DNA of 34,225 bases from an uncultured bacterium. Its GTDB lineage: Bacteria; Verrucomicrobiota; Kiritimatiellia; RFP12; UBA1067. Under the pieces are notes generated by a model. It saw only the letters and a list, made by a program, of their open reading frames with translations. It did no database searches and had not been told where the DNA came from. Below, piece after piece: positions 15,453-30,734 of this stretch; the stretch's first letter is position 1; every line of letters begins with the position of its first letter. The DNA is taken from assembly GCA_902803135.1 (NCBI GenBank), contig CADCPA010000155.1, positions 1 to 34,225 of the forward strand, in the 5' to 3' direction. Both the position numbers and the translations under genes were made by a program.

Positions 15453-15485
15453 CCTCCTTCAGCGAAATTGAAAAGGGAAATGACA

Positions 15486-15998
15486 ATGACGAAGAAACTG
15501 ATGTGTGCGTTTGCCCTCGTGTGCGGCGCAATGGTTGCCCAGGCGGACTTCCTCTGGTGGCAGGTCGACCCGGTCTCGGGGCGTGAGTTCTCGCTTGCGG
15601 ACCTCTATGTGACGGATGGCACCACGTCGACCGCTCTCGACACCGTCCAGCCGGCGGATGCCGATCCGACTACGGGCTTGGGCACGAAGGTTGAGACCGT
15701 GAGCACGGACGTCTCCGGCTACACGAGTTCCCAGTATTCCTTCTTCGTGGAGCTCGTCACGTACTCCGACGCGAACTACACCACGGTGACCGGCACGCAG
15801 AAACTGGATGCGGTTTCCTACGATTCCCTCATCACGGCCGGCTACATCACGGGGGCGAGCCAGGGTCCGGGTCTCCCCTCGGCTCCGGCGCCGTCGGGCG
15901 GTTACAACCTCGGTGGCAATGTTCCGGAGCCGACGAGCGGCATGCTGTTCCTGCTCGGCGGTGCGCTGATGGCTTTGCGCCGTCGCCGTCGGGCTTAA
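15486..15998 (+). CDS. PEP-CTERM sorted exported protein
   Basis: A 170-residue protein with a signal peptide (MTKKLMCAFALVCGAMVAQA) and a complete C-terminal PEP-CTERM signal: VPEP, then a hydrophobic helix (SGMLFLLGGALMAL), then R-R-R-R-R-A at the very end. In bacteria with exosortase (Xrt), such proteins are cut at this signal and sorted to the envelope or an extracellular matrix. No exosortase gene lies in the window. The mature part is small and Thr/Ser/Asp-rich with no known domain. The start is chosen because AGGGA lies about 7 bases before 15486; Met at 15480 is also in frame. It is the last gene of the exported cassette. Confidence 0.85.
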   Translation: MTKKLMCAFALVCGAMVAQADFLWWQVDPVSGREFSLADLYVTDGTTSTALDTVQPADADPTTGLGTKVETVSTDVSGYTSSQYSFFVELVTYSDANYTTVTGTQKLDAVSYDSLITAGYITGASQGPGLPSAPAPSGGYNLGGNVPEPTSGMLFLLGGALMALRRRRRA

Positions 15999-23707: not shown

Positions 23708-23737
23708 TTGCCATTCAAGCCGTTTTTTTGTTATGAT
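23708..23737 (+). promoter_or_regulatory. tRNA-Ser promoter
   Basis: TTGCCA (23708-23713) and TATGAT (23732-23737) are separated by 18 bases and both match sigma70 consensus well. The start site would be near 23745, about ten bases before the mature tRNA. The segment is shared with the 5' side of the divergent radical-SAM gene, which argues against that gene starting further upstream than 23700. Confidence 0.65.
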
Positions 23738-23754
23738 ATCCGCGTTCTCCGACT

Positions 23755-23848
23755 GGAGGGATGGCCGAGTGGCTGAAGGCAGCGGTTTGCTAAATCGCCA
23801 TACGGTTTAATCGCCGTATCGGGGGTTCGAATCCCCCTCCCTCCGCCA
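23755..23848 (+). tRNA. tRNA-Ser (anticodon GCU)
   Basis: The acceptor stem GGAGGGA (23755-23761) pairs with TCCCTCC (23838-23844), followed by discriminator G (23845) and encoded CCA (23846-23848). The anticodon loop TTTGCTAAA carries GCT, reading AGC/AGU serine codons. The long variable arm (TACGG...CCGTA) is typical of class II tRNA-Ser, and the T arm GGGGGTTCGAATCCCCC is perfect. Total length 94 bases with CCA. Confidence 0.97.
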
Positions 23849-23865
23849 GTTTGGTTGGTGTTGTC

Positions 23866-23890
23866 ATCCCCAAGAAATTGGGGATTTTTT
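23866..23890 (+). terminator. Intrinsic terminator after tRNA-Ser
   Basis: ATCCCCAA (23866-23873) and TTGGGGAT (23878-23885) form a perfect 8-bp stem with GAAA loop, followed by a run of T to 23890. It ends only five bases before the ribosome binding site of the giant gene (ACGGAGG, 23895-23901). Confidence 0.9.
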
Positions 23891-23907
23891 ATCAACGGAG
23901 GTACCCG

Positions 23908-26900
23908 ATGAATCAGTGGACGAAGAAAGCCGGCTGGGTGCTGGGATGCGCGTTGGGCGTTTCCGGCGTGTTCGCCGCGACGACGATCAATCTGGCCGAG
24001 ACGGAGCTGGCGGCTTCGGACGCCTATACCGTGTCCGGCGGCACCGTCACGCTCGTGAAGCGAGGCGAAGCCTACACGCTCAAGGGCACGGGCAAGTGGA
24101 ACGTCAAGGCCGGCGCCGACTGCTATGTGACGCTGAGCAGCGCGACGAATGCACCGACGGCCGGTGCGGCGCTGGATGCCGACGGACACACCCTGCGTGT
24201 GACCTTGACGGGCACGAGCAGTCTGACCGGCGCCTCCGCGGCGGCGGGCTTGCAGGTCAATGCGGGCTCGACGGTGACGATCGACGGCTCCGGCACGCTC
24301 GTGTGCAAAGGCGACGGCGGTGCGGCCTCCCTCGGCAGCGCGTCCGGGACGGATGCCGGCACGCTGACGGTTCTTTCGGGCACGGTCGACGCGCAGGCCC
24401 CCGGCAACGGCGGCACGGCGAAGTGCGGCGCGGCCATCGGCGCGGGTGCGCACGGCAACGGCGGCGTGCTGACGATCGCGGGCGGCAATGTGACCGCGAC
24501 CGGGACAAAGTGGGGCGTCGCCATCGGCGCCGGCACGACCTACAACACGTCGTACAACGTGAACGCGGGTACCATCCGCATTACGGGCGGCCAGGTCAAG
24601 GCGACGGGCGGCCAGGACGGCGGCGCGGCCATCGGCGGCGGCCACGGCCATGCCAGCGACAAGCGCTACCAGAGCGGCGGCGGCAAGCTCGACATCCTCG
24701 GCGGCACGGTCGAACTCGTCTCCGGCGACGGCGATACGTTCGCGACGATCGGCGGCGGCAAGATCGCGGGTCCGGGCCTCGATGTGACGATCGACGCGGC
24801 GGCAACCGTGACCCTGCAGGCGCGCAACAACAACAACCACCAGTTCGGCTGCCGCGATACGTCCGTGTCGCAGGGTTCGCTCAAGCTGACGAACAAGACG
24901 GGCGCCTCGAACCGCGTGTTCCTCAAGCTGACGGGGAATGACACGACGGACTACCTCCAGCCGAACGCCGGCTATGTGCAGGCAACGGTCGAGGACGGCA
25001 TGACGATCCAGACCTGGACGTCGACGAACACATCCACGGCGACGCGCACGTACAAGGTGGCGGGCGGTGAAGGCGAGGCGGCGGTGCCGGAAGGCTTCGA
25101 CGCGGCGCTCAACCTGTCGCTGCTGCGTCCGGGGGCATCCGGCGAAAACTACACGGTGACGTCGGACGGCATCATCGAGCTTGCGGCGAACAAGAAGTTC
25201 TACATCACGGGAAAGGGTTGGTTTGAGACTTCGGCCGACATGACGCTCAAGCCGCTTGGCGCGTTCGACATCACGCTGGACAACGTCACGATTCGCGGCG
25301 CGAACAACCAGCCGGGCTTTGACGTGAACGGCCAGACCGGCACGCTGCGGACGCTGCAGGGTACGCAGTCGACCATCTGGGGCGGCTATCCGAGCACAAA
25401 GGGCGGCATCAGTCTCGAAAACGCGGCCAGCCATCTGACGCTGGTCGGCGACGGTTCGCTTTTCGTCCATGGCAACAGCCTGGGCGCGGCGGGCATCGGC
25501 GGCGGCCGCGGCGAATCGATGCGCGGCACGCTGGTGGTCGAAAGCGGCACGGTGGAGGTGCGGTCCGGCGGTGCCGTGAGTGGCGGAAAGGCCGGTGCGG
25601 CCATCGGCGGCGGCTATGAAGGCTCCGGCGGCACGGTCGTCGTCAACGGCGGCGTTGTCAAGGCAGTGCCGAGCTGCAGCTGGACGTGCGGCATCGGTGC
25701 GGGCTCGACGCATGAATCGAGCGTCCAGGTGAACGCCGGCTCGATCACGATCAACGGCGGCTGGGTCGAGGCGACGGGTACGAAGGACGGCGGCGCGGCC
25801 ATCGGCTGCGGACACTGTGCGGACGGACGGGACAACTTCACGGGCGGTTCGCTCACGGTCAACGGCGGTACGCTCATCGCCACGGGCTGCGACGAAGGCG
25901 TGGTCGGCGACGGCTACAGCGCGGTCATCGGCGGCGGCAAGAACTCCTCGCGCGGCATGGATGTCACAATCGACGTGGCGGCGACGGTCGTCGTGCAGGC
26001 TCGCAACGGCGTGACGGTCGACTTCGGCTCGACACGCGCGACGGAGGCGACGAAGGGCACGCTGACGTTTACGAACAAGTCGGGCCTGACGGGCTTCCGC
26101 CGCTTCCTCGTGACGGATGTCGGTACGGCCGGTTCGGCGCCGGTCGCCCCGACGACGGCGGACGGTCTGATGGACCGCATCGTCTACCAGGAAGGTACGG
26201 GTACGCGCGGCTTTGCGCGCGCCTGGGCGCTCGATCTTCCGTCCGGTGTCGAACTGCTCAACGTCGAGGTGGTGCCGGCGAACGGCACGTCCACGCGCTG
26301 GACGCTGAACAACGATGTGTATGAAGTGACGGGCACTGAGCCGGCGCTCTATGTGGTCGGTTCGACGACGAAGGCGTTCCGCGCGACGGCCGATGCGGCG
26401 CTCAATCTGGCGGGGGTGACGGTGTCGACGGGCGGTCCTGCGTTCAATGCGAACGGCCATGCCGTGACGCTGAACCTTGAGAACGGTTCGAAGAACTCGT
26501 TCACGGCGACGGGCGACGGGCATGCGGGCATCCGCGTGAACGACTCCGCCACGCTTGTGGTCACCGGCGCGGCGTGGGACGCTGAAAATGCGGGCGAACT
26601 GCTCGCGCAGGGACGCTGGCAGGGCGCGGGCCTCGGCGGCGAGAACGGCGAACGCTGCGGTACGGTGCGCATCGAAGGCGGCGCGGTGACGGCGCAGACG
26701 ACGGGCGACGGCGGCCAGAGCGGTGCCGGCCTTGGCGGCGGCTACGGCGCGGACGGACCGGTGCTCTTCGAGATGATCGACGGCCGGCTCATCGCGGGCA
26801 AGTCGGGCCGACATGGCGCCGGCATCGGCACGGGCTGCGCGTATGGGCGTCCAGACGGGACGATTCTTGATGCGGGGCACATCGTCTTCAGGGGCGGCTT

Positions 26901-29763
26901 GACCGAGGCTTTCGGCGGCGAAGACGGTGGTGCGGCCATCGGTGGCGGGCATTCGAAGCCGAAAAACGCCACCGGCGGCGGCACGATCGAATTCCTGGGC
27001 GGGCAGGTGATTGCGACGGGCGCGAAGGGCGACAGCGAGGCGGCGGTCATCGGCGCGGGCAAACAGGGCGGCTACGGCAGCGACGTGACGCTCGACGTGT
27101 CGGCGTATCTCGAAATCCACCGCGGCGACACGACGAACACGTGGGCCATCGGCAGCGTGGGCGTGGGCGGCTATGATGCCATCGCCGAAGGCCACAAGGG
27201 TTCGCTCGCGCTGACGAACGCGAAGGGCATTACGGAGCCGACGCAGTTCTATTTGTGCGACTTCTGCAACGACCTGATGGCGTCGACGGGGTCGGGTCTC
27301 GCGCGGACCAACACGGCCGATACGGACACGCTCAAGGTCTATCCGGTGATGTGTGCGTCGGGCGGCGTCGGCGAGTACGGTCCCGCCAGCGTGCAGGACG
27401 CCTTTGTCGACCTCGCGACGGCGAGCGGCGAGACGGCGTACTACAGCGTGTCGGGCTCGACGGTGACGATCAAGGACGGTGCCCAGGTGACGATTTCCGG
27501 CAGCGGCAAATCCGTCGTCTGCGCGGGCGATGCGACGGTGGTGCTCGCGAATGCCACGCTGGACGGCTTCACGACGGGGTCGCATGCGGTGGACGTCAGG
27601 CTCTGGGGCGTCAACAAGACGACGGGGCAGGGCGGTAAGGCCGGTCTCACGGTGAGCCCGGATGGCTCGGTGCGCATTTTCGGCGACGGCGAGCTGACGG
27701 CCCAGGGCAACGGCGGCGGCGCGGGCATCGGCGGCGACTGGAACATGGGCACGGCCGGTAGCATCACGATCGACGGCGGAACGATCAACGCGGCGGGTTC
27801 GCAGAAGGGCGGCGGACAGTGCGGTGCCGGCATTGGCGCGGGCGGCTACGGTTCCTGCGACATCATCACGATCAACAACGGTCTCGTGAATGCGACGGGT
27901 ACGCGCTGGACGGCGGCCATCGGCGGCAGCGCGAATGCGAACTGGGGCGGCACGCCGCGCGTGGGCAAGATCACGATCAACGGCGGCGTAGTGAACGCGA
28001 AGGCCGACATCTCCGGCGGTTCGGCGATCGGCAGCGGCCACGAGGCGGCGAACAATGTGACGCCCTCGATCGAAATCGAAATCAACGGCGGCACCGTCAC
28101 TGCGCAGACGGGTCTTGGCGAAGGCGCTTCGGACTTCAACGGCGCCGTCATCGGCGGCGGCCGCAAGTGCACGGACGTCAAGGTGACGATCTCCACGGCG
28201 GCCAAGGTGACCTGCTCGTATGCGGGCGGCAACAACTGCGCCAGTGCGCGGGCGGACATCGGTTCGTCGGTGCCGGGCACGGCGGGTTCTCTGACGATCG
28301 TGCCGAAGGCGGGAACGGAGAACCAGGTGTTCCTTGTGACGTCGGCGATGGACGTCTTCAGTTCCGAGCAGGTGACGCTGGCGAATCCGTCCGTCGCGCT
28401 GCAGGTGGCGAAGACGGCGCAAGGCGGCGGCTTCTCGTACGCGCTCACGCCGGCGGCCGGTCTCGTGTGGACGGGCGCGGGCGACGGCGTGCATTGGAGC
28501 GATCCGGCGAACTGGAACGGGACGCTCGACGCGACGGGCTCGAACGGCACGATCATCTTTGTCGGCGCTGCGGCGGCGACCGAGAACGACGTGGGCCCGA
28601 TTGCCGTGACGGGCCTCCGTACGGCGGCGGACATGCCGGTCGCGATCGCGGGACAGCCGATTCTCGCGCCGGGCACGCTTGAACTGGAAGGCGAGTTCAC
28701 GTTTGCCTCGTTCACGGTGGGCCGGGAACTGAAGGCGTGTGCGCCGGGCGCGACGGTGAACGGCACGGGTTTCGTGGGCGTGCTGGGTCCGAACTATCCC
28801 GCGCCGGTCACCTTCAAGTCGGGTACGTTCACGGTCGGCCTGCTGACGGCACCGACGCAGGCCGGCGCATTCGTGGTCGGCGACGCGGCGACGGTCCACG
28901 TCTACGAGGCCGCCGCGCCGTCGGACAATGTCTTCTCCTGTCTGCAGCGGACGGATGGTACGCTCGTTCTGGACACTGCGCTGCCGGTGGTCTATAGCCA
29001 GGCCCAGCTCGGTGGCGCGGGCACGCTTCAGTTTAAGAAGGGACTGCTCCTCGCCGGCTCGATGGGCAGCGCCAATTGGATTGGTTCGGCGACGTTCCTC
29101 CTGGGCGGCGATGTGGCGGGCGACATGATCGACTTCCATTGCATCTATGGTTCGGGCGAGGGCCTCGTGTGGCAGCCGATGGCGAACGACGTCGTCTTCG
29201 ACGACACGGTGAGCCTCGAGGGCGTGGCCGTGGTACAGACGACGGATGCGGCGGGCGATCCGCGCACGGTGACCTTCGCGCGTGGACTTATGAGCCGTGC
29301 GAAGGGCACGGCGGCCGGCAATGTGGACATTGCCGAGGGCAGCTGCACGCTCGCCGTCAAGGGTTCGGGTGCGGTGAAGGTGCAGGCGGCCGCAGTGCCG
29401 GGACGCGGCATCGCGTTCAACCAGAACCTGAACGTCGAGGACACGGCGACCTTCGCGTTCGGAAAGGATGCGACGTGGAACGGCAGCGGCTTCCTCTCCG
29501 TCGGTGCGACGGCGACCCTTGCGGTCGATGCGTCGTCGACGACGCTGCCGTCCGTCAAGCAGGCCACATTCGCCGCCGGCGCCACGGTGCGCATCGACGG
29601 CGCGGAGAGCTGGACGGGCGTTCAGCCGCTGCCGCTGCTGCAGGCGGCGACGTTCACGGGCAAGCCGGCCGGCATGCTGGCGAACGGCAAGGCGGTGACG
29701 ACGGCCATCCGCGACGGCGTGCTGTACGCGATTCGCGGCGGCCTGGCCATCCTCATCCGCTGA
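23908..29763 (+). CDS. Giant exported beta-helix-like repeat protein
   Basis: A 1951-residue protein with a signal peptide (MNQWTKKAGWVLGCALGVSGVFA). Residues about 24-1515 are four tandem modules of about 340-400 residues (starts near 24, 411, 794 and 1176). Each opens with a beta-rich segment and then has five turns marked A-x-I/L-G-x-G: e.g. AAIGAG, VAIGAG, AAIGGG and ATIGGG in module 1. Turn 4 always has a His after the motif (GHGH, GHC, GHS, GHE) and turn 5 a Lys/Arg (GGGK, GGGK, GAGK, GGGR), then DVTIDxAATV and a KGTLTFTNKSG-like end. This looks like the Cthe_2159/GTITIxGGTVTA-type right-handed beta-helix group. Residues about 1518-1951 contain a W-x-G-x-G...W-S-D-P-A-N-W strand typical of autotransporter-associated repeats but no barrel. 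No PEP-CTERM or other anchor is seen. The start is backed by ACGGAGG 6 bases upstream. Function unknown. Confidence 0.85.
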   Translation: MNQWTKKAGWVLGCALGVSGVFAATTINLAETELAASDAYTVSGGTVTLVKRGEAYTLKGTGKWNVKAGADCYVTLSSATNAPTAGAALDADGHTLRVTLTGTSSLTGASAAAGLQVNAGSTVTIDGSGTLVCKGDGGAASLGSASGTDAGTLTVLSGTVDAQAPGNGGTAKCGAAIGAGAHGNGGVLTIAGGNVTATGTKWGVAIGAGTTYNTSYNVNAGTIRITGGQVKATGGQDGGAAIGGGHGHASDKRYQSGGGKLDILGGTVELVSGDGDTFATIGGGKIAGPGLDVTIDAAATVTLQARNNNNHQFGCRDTSVSQGSLKLTNKTGASNRVFLKLTGNDTTDYLQPNAGYVQATVEDGMTIQTWTSTNTSTATRTYKVAGGEGEAAVPEGFDAALNLSLLRPGASGENYTVTSDGIIELAANKKFYITGKGWFETSADMTLKPLGAFDITLDNVTIRGANNQPGFDVNGQTGTLRTLQGTQSTIWGGYPSTKGGISLENAASHLTLVGDGSLFVHGNSLGAAGIGGGRGESMRGTLVVESGTVEVRSGGAVSGGKAGAAIGGGYEGSGGTVVVNGGVVKAVPSCSWTCGIGAGSTHESSVQVNAGSITINGGWVEATGTKDGGAAIGCGHCADGRDNFTGGSLTVNGGTLIATGCDEGVVGDGYSAVIGGGKNSSRGMDVTIDVAATVVVQARNGVTVDFGSTRATEATKGTLTFTNKSGLTGFRRFLVTDVGTAGSAPVAPTTADGLMDRIVYQEGTGTRGFARAWALDLPSGVELLNVEVVPANGTSTRWTLNNDVYEVTGTEPALYVVGSTTKAFRATADAALNLAGVTVSTGGPAFNANGHAVTLNLENGSKNSFTATGDGHAGIRVNDSATLVVTGAAWDAENAGELLAQGRWQGAGLGGENGERCGTVRIEGGAVTAQTTGDGGQSGAGLGGGYGADGPVLFEMIDGRLIAGKSGRHGAGIGTGCAYGRPDGTILDAGHIVFRGGLTEAFGGEDGGAAIGGGHSKPKNATGGGTIEFLGGQVIATGAKGDSEAAVIGAGKQGGYGSDVTLDVSAYLEIHRGDTTNTWAIGSVGVGGYDAIAEGHKGSLALTNAKGITEPTQFYLCDFCNDLMASTGSGLARTNTADTDTLKVYPVMCASGGVGEYGPASVQDAFVDLATASGETAYYSVSGSTVTIKDGAQVTISGSGKSVVCAGDATVVLANATLDGFTTGSHAVDVRLWGVNKTTGQGGKAGLTVSPDGSVRIFGDGELTAQGNGGGAGIGGDWNMGTAGSITIDGGTINAAGSQKGGGQCGAGIGAGGYGSCDIITINNGLVNATGTRWTAAIGGSANANWGGTPRVGKITINGGVVNAKADISGGSAIGSGHEAANNVTPSIEIEINGGTVTAQTGLGEGASDFNGAVIGGGRKCTDVKVTISTAAKVTCSYAGGNNCASARADIGSSVPGTAGSLTIVPKAGTENQVFLVTSAMDVFSSEQVTLANPSVALQVAKTAQGGGFSYALTPAAGLVWTGAGDGVHWSDPANWNGTLDATGSNGTIIFVGAAAATENDVGPIAVTGLRTAADMPVAIAGQPILAPGTLELEGEFTFASFTVGRELKACAPGATVNGTGFVGVLGPNYPAPVTFKSGTFTVGLLTAPTQAGAFVVGDAATVHVYEAAAPSDNVFSCLQRTDGTLVLDTALPVVYSQAQLGGAGTLQFKKGLLLAGSMGSANWIGSATFLLGGDVAGDMIDFHCIYGSGEGLVWQPMANDVVFDDTVSLEGVAVVQTTDAAGDPRTVTFARGLMSRAKGTAAGNVDIAEGSCTLAVKGSGAVKVQAAAVPGRGIAFNQNLNVEDTATFAFGKDATWNGSGFLSVGATATLAVDASSTTLPSVKQATFAAGATVRIDGAESWTGVQPLPLLQAATFTGKPAGMLANGKAVTTAIRDGVLYAIRGGLAILIR

Positions 29764-29786
29764 TGCGGGATTCGGAAAGGCAGACA

Positions 29787-30734
29787 ATGAGAACGCTCCT
29801 CGGTTTGACGGTCGCGGTGTGCGCGGCGATGGCGGCTTCGGCGGCGGATGTTTCCGTATGCAAGTTTCCCGACGGCAAATCGGGCGCGTTCCTGCTCGCC
29901 TTCGACGACGGCTGCCCGTCGCAGCTCGCGCATGCGATTCCGGTGTTGGAGAAGTACCGCGTGCCGGGTACGTTCTATCCGATTACGGAGGCCGGGCATT
30001 TCAAGGCGCGCAAGGCGGATTGGATCAAGGCCGCGAAGAGTCCGTACGTGACGCTCGGCAACCACACGTCGACGCATCGGGGCGTTACGACGCCGGACGA
30101 GCTCGACAAGCAGCTCGCGGATGCGAATGCGGTGTTGAAGGAGATGCAGCCGGAGTTGCCGTGGCCGCGGCTCATCTCCTTCGCCGTACCGGGCGGCGTG
30201 CCGTGGAAGATCGAGCCGGCGGAGCTGAAGGCGAAGCTCGACGCGCAGCACCTCGTGGAACGGCCGAAATTCCAGACGCCGCCCTGGTTCTGCAAGACGG
30301 TGGCGGACGCCGAAGCCTATATCGACCGGTGCATCGCCACGAAGCAGATGGGGCACATCGACTTCCACGGCATCGGCGGCGACTGGCTCTCCAATCCGAC
30401 CGAATACCTCGAAGGCGTCGCGAAAAAGCTGGATTCGGTGCGCGACCGCCTGTGGCTCGCACCGGCCGAGGACTGGAACAAGTACACGGCCGAGCAGGCC
30501 GTGGCGCAGGTGAAGGTCGAGAAGGAGACGGCGAACGAAGTCGCGCTGACGGTGTCGCTGGGCGCGCTGGATCCGGCAATCTACGATTTCCCGCTCACGC
30601 TCGAACTGAAGACGGACTGGAAACGCGTCCGGCTCGAGGCCGGGTGTGCGGTTTCCGAGCTTGCGGCGCAGGACGGAAAGGTGAAGTTCTCCGTGCCGGC
30701 GGGTGTGAAGGCCGTGCTGAAGAAGCTGGATTGA
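29787..30734 (+). CDS. Exported polysaccharide deacetylase-like protein
   Basis: A 315-residue NodB-fold protein with a signal peptide (MRTLLGLTVAVCAAMAASA). The NodB signatures are LAFDDGCPSQLAHAIPVLEKY (D40-D41, the metal/catalytic Asp pair) and LGNHTSTHRG (H93 and H97, the H-x3-H metal ligands). This predicts metal-dependent removal of N- or O-acetyl groups from a polysaccharide or peptidoglycan. The C-terminal 90 residues are beta-rich and probably an accessory domain. AAGG is about 7 bases before ATG 29787; an in-frame ATG at 29763 overlaps the stop of the giant gene and could be used instead. It is close enough to the giant gene to be in the same transcript. Confidence 0.85.
   Translation: MRTLLGLTVAVCAAMAASAADVSVCKFPDGKSGAFLLAFDDGCPSQLAHAIPVLEKYRVPGTFYPITEAGHFKARKADWIKAAKSPYVTLGNHTSTHRGVTTPDELDKQLADANAVLKEMQPELPWPRLISFAVPGGVPWKIEPAELKAKLDAQHLVERPKFQTPPWFCKTVADAEAYIDRCIATKQMGHIDFHGIGGDWLSNPTEYLEGVAKKLDSVRDRLWLAPAEDWNKYTAEQAVAQVKVEKETANEVALTVSLGALDPAIYDFPLTLELKTDWKRVRLEAGCAVSELAAQDGKVKFSVPAGVKAVLKKLD

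Follow-up and report, generated by a model that had tools for sequence, protein, structure and literature searches.

The window analysed is a stretch of 34,225 nucleotides from a rumen bacterium of Lentisphaerae type, and it contains a gene for a protein of 1951 amino acids, largely built of four tandem modules with five A-x-I/L-G-x-G turns each. In every module a His follows turn 4 and a Lys or an Arg follows turn 5. The gene, its modules and the conservation of these residues are established. The protein is proposed to be secreted, probably to the cell surface, and to bind carbohydrates or mediate adhesion multivalently, with a site to which His and Lys/Arg would contribute; the chances of this reading are judged about even. 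It is probably a protein of a known broad kind, and its C-terminal tail is not catalogued in Pfam or NCBIfam.

The open reading frame starts at the ATG at 23908 and ends with the stop codon at 29761-29763; a GGAGG at 23897-23901 is its Shine-Dalgarno sequence. The homologous modules span approximately residues 26-1505, and the remaining 450 or so C-terminal residues are something else. An antisense frame of 2018 amino acids (23731-29787), rich in Arg and with no sign of repeats or homology, was taken as a presumable by-product of high GC content. The features, all on the + strand, are the following.

23908-29763, +: whole gene, 1951 amino acids, one open reading frame, matched over its full length by the orthologues
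23908-23976, +: signal peptide-like N-terminus (MNQWTKKAGWVLGCALGVSGVFA), from reading of the sequence
23983-25092, +: module 1, five-turn beta-helix (predicted)
24643-24645, +: His246, after turn 4 of module 1
24760-24762, +: Lys285, after turn 5 of module 1
25093-26274, +: module 2, five-turn beta-helix (predicted), with the gene's one PF18889 repeat over the Pfam cut-off at 25744-25812
25813-25815, +: His636, after turn 4 of module 2
25939-25941, +: Lys678, after turn 5 of module 2
26275-27399, +: module 3, five-turn beta-helix (predicted)
26950-26952, +: His1015, after turn 4 of module 3
27061-27063, +: Lys1052, after turn 5 of module 3
27400-28422, +: module 4, five-turn beta-helix (predicted)
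28039-28041, +: His1378, after turn 4 of module 4
28162-28164, +: Arg1419, after turn 5 of module 4, an Arg that both orthologues share
28423-29625, +: C-terminal region without repeat, starting LVWTGAGDGxxxSDPxNW, kept in the orthologues
29626-29760, +: C-terminal tail (...IRDGVLYAIRGGLAILIR), belonging to a C-terminal family found across the genus

Turns were counted by a regular expression, which finds five of them in each of modules 1, 3 and 4, and in module 2 five plus one spurious match overlapping a loop. The total of 20 turns, in four modules of five, agrees with the earlier note, and so does its placing of the two residues: His is found after turn 4 in all four modules, while turn 5 is followed by Lys in three modules and by Arg in the other. 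Some turns deviate slightly from the motif (ASLGSA, VAIGAG, CGIGAG, AGLGGE, AGIGGD, AAIGGS, SAIGSG).

Orthologues were found in two genomes of the same genus, RUG10619 and RUG14821, taken from their RUG isolate names to be rumen metagenome-assembled genomes; identity is about 50% over the whole length. The earlier note had made the conservation of these residues in homologues a test of its proposal, and all eight are present in both orthologues (His 4/4 and Lys/Arg 4/4 in each, module 4 again having Arg). The two orthologues are 95.8% identical to each other and thus together represent one extra lineage, so that the sample amounts to two lineages of four modules, and the modules themselves arose by duplication, a caveat on any count of modules. 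In an alignment of the 12 modules, none of the 321 columns is more conserved, on the Jensen-Shannon measure, than that of His, and that of Lys/Arg comes seventh. Compared by Fisher tests with other residues of the same type, p is 0.07 for His (4/4 kept vs 6/14) and 0.013 for Lys/Arg. Module 1 is 52% identical to its orthologous module, above its identity to the other modules of the same protein (31-37% in the same alignment; a separate comparison put the modules at 36-47% identity to module 1). On these identities, the four-module layout appears to be older than the split, each copy having retained its residues on its own.

In related proteins of the same order, the two residues are much less frequent: of 515 turns, 12 (2.3%) are followed by His and 55 (10.7%) by Lys/Arg, and neither is enriched in penultimate or last turns. 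Such relatives, identified with the module profile in 29 of 59 sampled genomes of the order, have from 3 to 18 turns per module. The search was performed on the whole family (115 genomes) and on 388 genomes of the phylum. Full-length module matches are found in three genomes only, all with E < 1e-113; the next-best matches are at about 1e-29, and most of them reach only to about position 245 of the 373 in the profile, short of the final coil and the cap. Judging from these matches, the His/Lys pattern thus characterises a single orthologue group and not the wider family. Single-module relatives, which the earlier note had suggested looking for, did not emerge, the full-length module being found nowhere outside the three orthologues. 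A five-turn module of another protein (G004:C1, L043 frame 2, residues 1084-1200) has a His after turn 4 (AGIGTGH) and a Glu after turn 5; this His is probably there by chance.

The ability of the modules to fold as a beta-helix, put forward in the earlier note, is supported by two AlphaFold models. For modules 1-2, predicted from a 6-row alignment, mean pLDDT is 80 and pTM 0.56. When this model was compared with the PDB by Foldseek, the top match was Cthe_2159 (4PHB, E 8e-4, and 4PEU), with a probability of 1.00 and TM values, by target, of 0.58 (4PHB) and 0.54 (4PEU). The second model, comprising module 4 and the C-terminus, also matches Cthe_2159 with a Foldseek probability of 1.00; its mean pLDDT of 60 is lowered by the C-terminal region, where values are low in the first part (of 28423-29625). 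The modules are accordingly predicted to be right-handed parallel beta-helices with PF18889-type repeats. DSSP assigns bridges to the I-G pairs of turns 3, 4 and 5 in module 1 (model residues 181-182, 217-218, 256-257) and likewise to pairs 571-572, 607-608 and 649-650 in module 2, so that the residue three places further on should share one edge of adjacent coils. By this predicted strand register, His and Lys/Arg would lie on the same edge of adjacent coils and not on opposite faces, the arrangement which the earlier note had regarded as contrary to its idea. The loops after turns 3 and 4 exceed in length those typical of relatives and could form a pocket; the loop following H246 is predicted with low confidence (pLDDT about 61, block mean).

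The main rival to glycan binding is a purely structural role, in which His and Lys/Arg would serve to cap, or to brace, the two final coils along with the long loop that follows turn 4, with no ligand involved; the protein could still be an adhesin or a stalk. This explanation is a serious one, judged somewhat less probable than glycan binding. It is consistent with the position of the residues just before the C-terminal cap, with neighbouring conserved columns that are mainly structural Gly, Ala and Ile, and with the matches of relatives stopping at about position 245 of 373, which would make the last coil and the cap special to the orthologue group. Conservation over effectively two lineages could also reflect such a role. 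However, His is the most conserved column of all and its side chain comes after the turn, not in the core, whereas a structural His usually accepts other polar residues in its place.

The relationship to known families was analyzed by profile searches. One repeat of the gene, at 25744-25812, scores 28.4 bits against PF18889 (Beta_helix_3), above the curated cut-off of 27 bits; hmmscan of the whole protein gives 21.2 bits, under the cut-off. PF18889 is matched by 9 of the 12 modules, with a best E of 4.4e-10. The repeat is held in common with the family (A-x-I-G-x-G ... ITINGGTVTATG), whereas the regular plan of four five-turn modules and the fixed His and Lys/Arg differ from the relatives, in which these residues are variable. 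The Pfam model of PF14262, the family of Cthe_2159, does not match the protein but does match other genes in the genus, and hhalign against four PF14262 proteins of the same genus yields a non-significant probability of 28%. PDB sequence searches with the protein and the module profile returned nothing meaningful, and none of the lyase families was matched by the protein sequence. Thus Cthe_2159 (4PHB, 4PEU) is resembled in predicted fold, by two models of different modules, with an undetectable sequence relation, and membership is only in the PF18889 repeat group. Giant frames with PF18889-type beta-helices, of up to 4937 amino acids and many modules, are abundant in the order, several per genome; they often end differently (...RFFRLRA, ...FYKVVVE; loci L043-L048, G000:C133:36000-48000).

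Cellulose and polygalacturonic acid are both bound by Cthe_2159, a protein related to PL9 pectate lyases (PMC6712302). Among the stalk domains listed for fibrillar-adhesin-like proteins is PF18889 (PMC8286594), and in a study of fibrillar adhesins a Cthe_2159-related cluster shows similarity to the part of a Lactobacillus reuteri adhesin that binds pectic acid (PMC9210967). The protein described here is likewise long, secreted and multi-module, with a stalk-type PF18889 repeat; among the features that define fibrillar adhesins, neither a known adhesive domain nor a known anchor was found in Pfam and NCBIfam scans. The fold match to a binder of cellulose and pectate tempers, at the level of prediction, the view of the earlier note that no known activity is visible.

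The same note had seen no anchor. This holds for the known types covered by those scans, but the C-terminus carries a tail common to many exported proteins of the genus, with a putative anchor role. The last 45 residues, which match no Pfam or NCBIfam model, resemble the extreme C-terminus of other large frames of the genus, with the consensus W-T-x-x-P-x-N...T-V-x-F...D-D-G-L-Y...G-x-x-I-I-V-R/K-stop; the copy in the 1951-residue protein is a divergent member. Of the 16 genomes of the genus, 15 contain matches to the iterated tail profile, up to 30 in each of two genomes, and a stop codon directly follows the match in 20 of 20 fetched sites. Across 193 genomes of the class, C-terminal matches are limited to this and two further genera of the family; those in a third genus besides are partial. 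The tail may be a lineage-specific sorting signal, and probably directs export or retention. SprA_N, searched for as a mark of T9SS, is absent from the 16 genomes, but also from the control genomes. A small PEP-CTERM protein is encoded elsewhere in the window (15468-15998; TIGR02595, 28.1 bits, cut-off 16), and the organism therefore probably also has an exosortase system.

The gene is preceded, 60 bases away, by a tRNA-Ser (23755-23848), with a terminator-like hairpin between them at 23866-23885; a tRNA-linked island was considered and rejected, since the orthologues have no tRNA nearby. The next gene encodes a polysaccharide deacetylase (PF01522) of secreted type. If it starts at the ATG at 29787, the gap is 23 nt, which suggests that the two genes are co-transcribed in this genome. 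A conserved operon was rejected, as neither orthologue has a deacetylase beside it. The rest of the window holds the cell-wall genes mraZ, mraW, a PBP and a Mur ligase, as well as genes for a GH88-like protein, the PEP-CTERM protein and a family 5 solute-binding protein.

A multivalent glycan-binding surface protein is favoured on the basis of the fold match to Cthe_2159, the adhesin literature and the stalk role of PF18889. Glycan binding is supported by the retention of all eight residues, by the rarity of His in the family, by the predicted Cthe_2159 fold and by the deacetylase encoded next; against it stand the lack of a sequence link to PF14262 and the absence of a deacetylase neighbour beside the orthologues. 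As proposed, each module would fold as a right-handed parallel beta-helix resembling Cthe_2159, in which the His of coil 4 and the Lys/Arg of coil 5 would be stacked along a shared edge, close to the C-terminal cap, adjoining the longer loops after turns 3 and 4. The pair would most likely be part of a polar site, present four times per protein and suited to an acidic glycan, pectin for example, and the tail would probably drive export or retention. A bolder version, in which the module is a new Cthe_2159-like unit for glycan recognition or cleavage, with four stacked His-Lys/Arg sites, held at the surface by an undescribed C-terminal sorting tail, is considered unlikely.

PL9 enzymes use a Lys as base. 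Each module might be a polysaccharide lyase or another enzyme, with His and Lys as catalytic residues, and the relation of the fold match to PL9 pectate lyases (PMC6712302) speaks for it; however, a sequence link to PL9 or PF14262 was not found and the module alignment shows no conserved cluster of acidic residues for calcium (nine positions ahead of His, and likewise of Lys/Arg, the Asp columns are D/S and not invariant), which makes catalysis quite improbable. A metal-binding repeat with the four His as ligands agrees with a His invariant in 12/12 modules, but is hardly credible with one His per module and no further His, nor any Cys or Glu, conserved among the aligned modules.

The protein offers a clean, testable case of position-specific residues kept across diverged beta-helix modules, in rumen bacteria and in PF18889, a family about whose ligands little is known. 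If the tail is a sorting signal, it would open the surface proteome of the genus; should pectin or some other acidic glycan of plants be bound at the site, this would help to explain how these bacteria attach to fibre.
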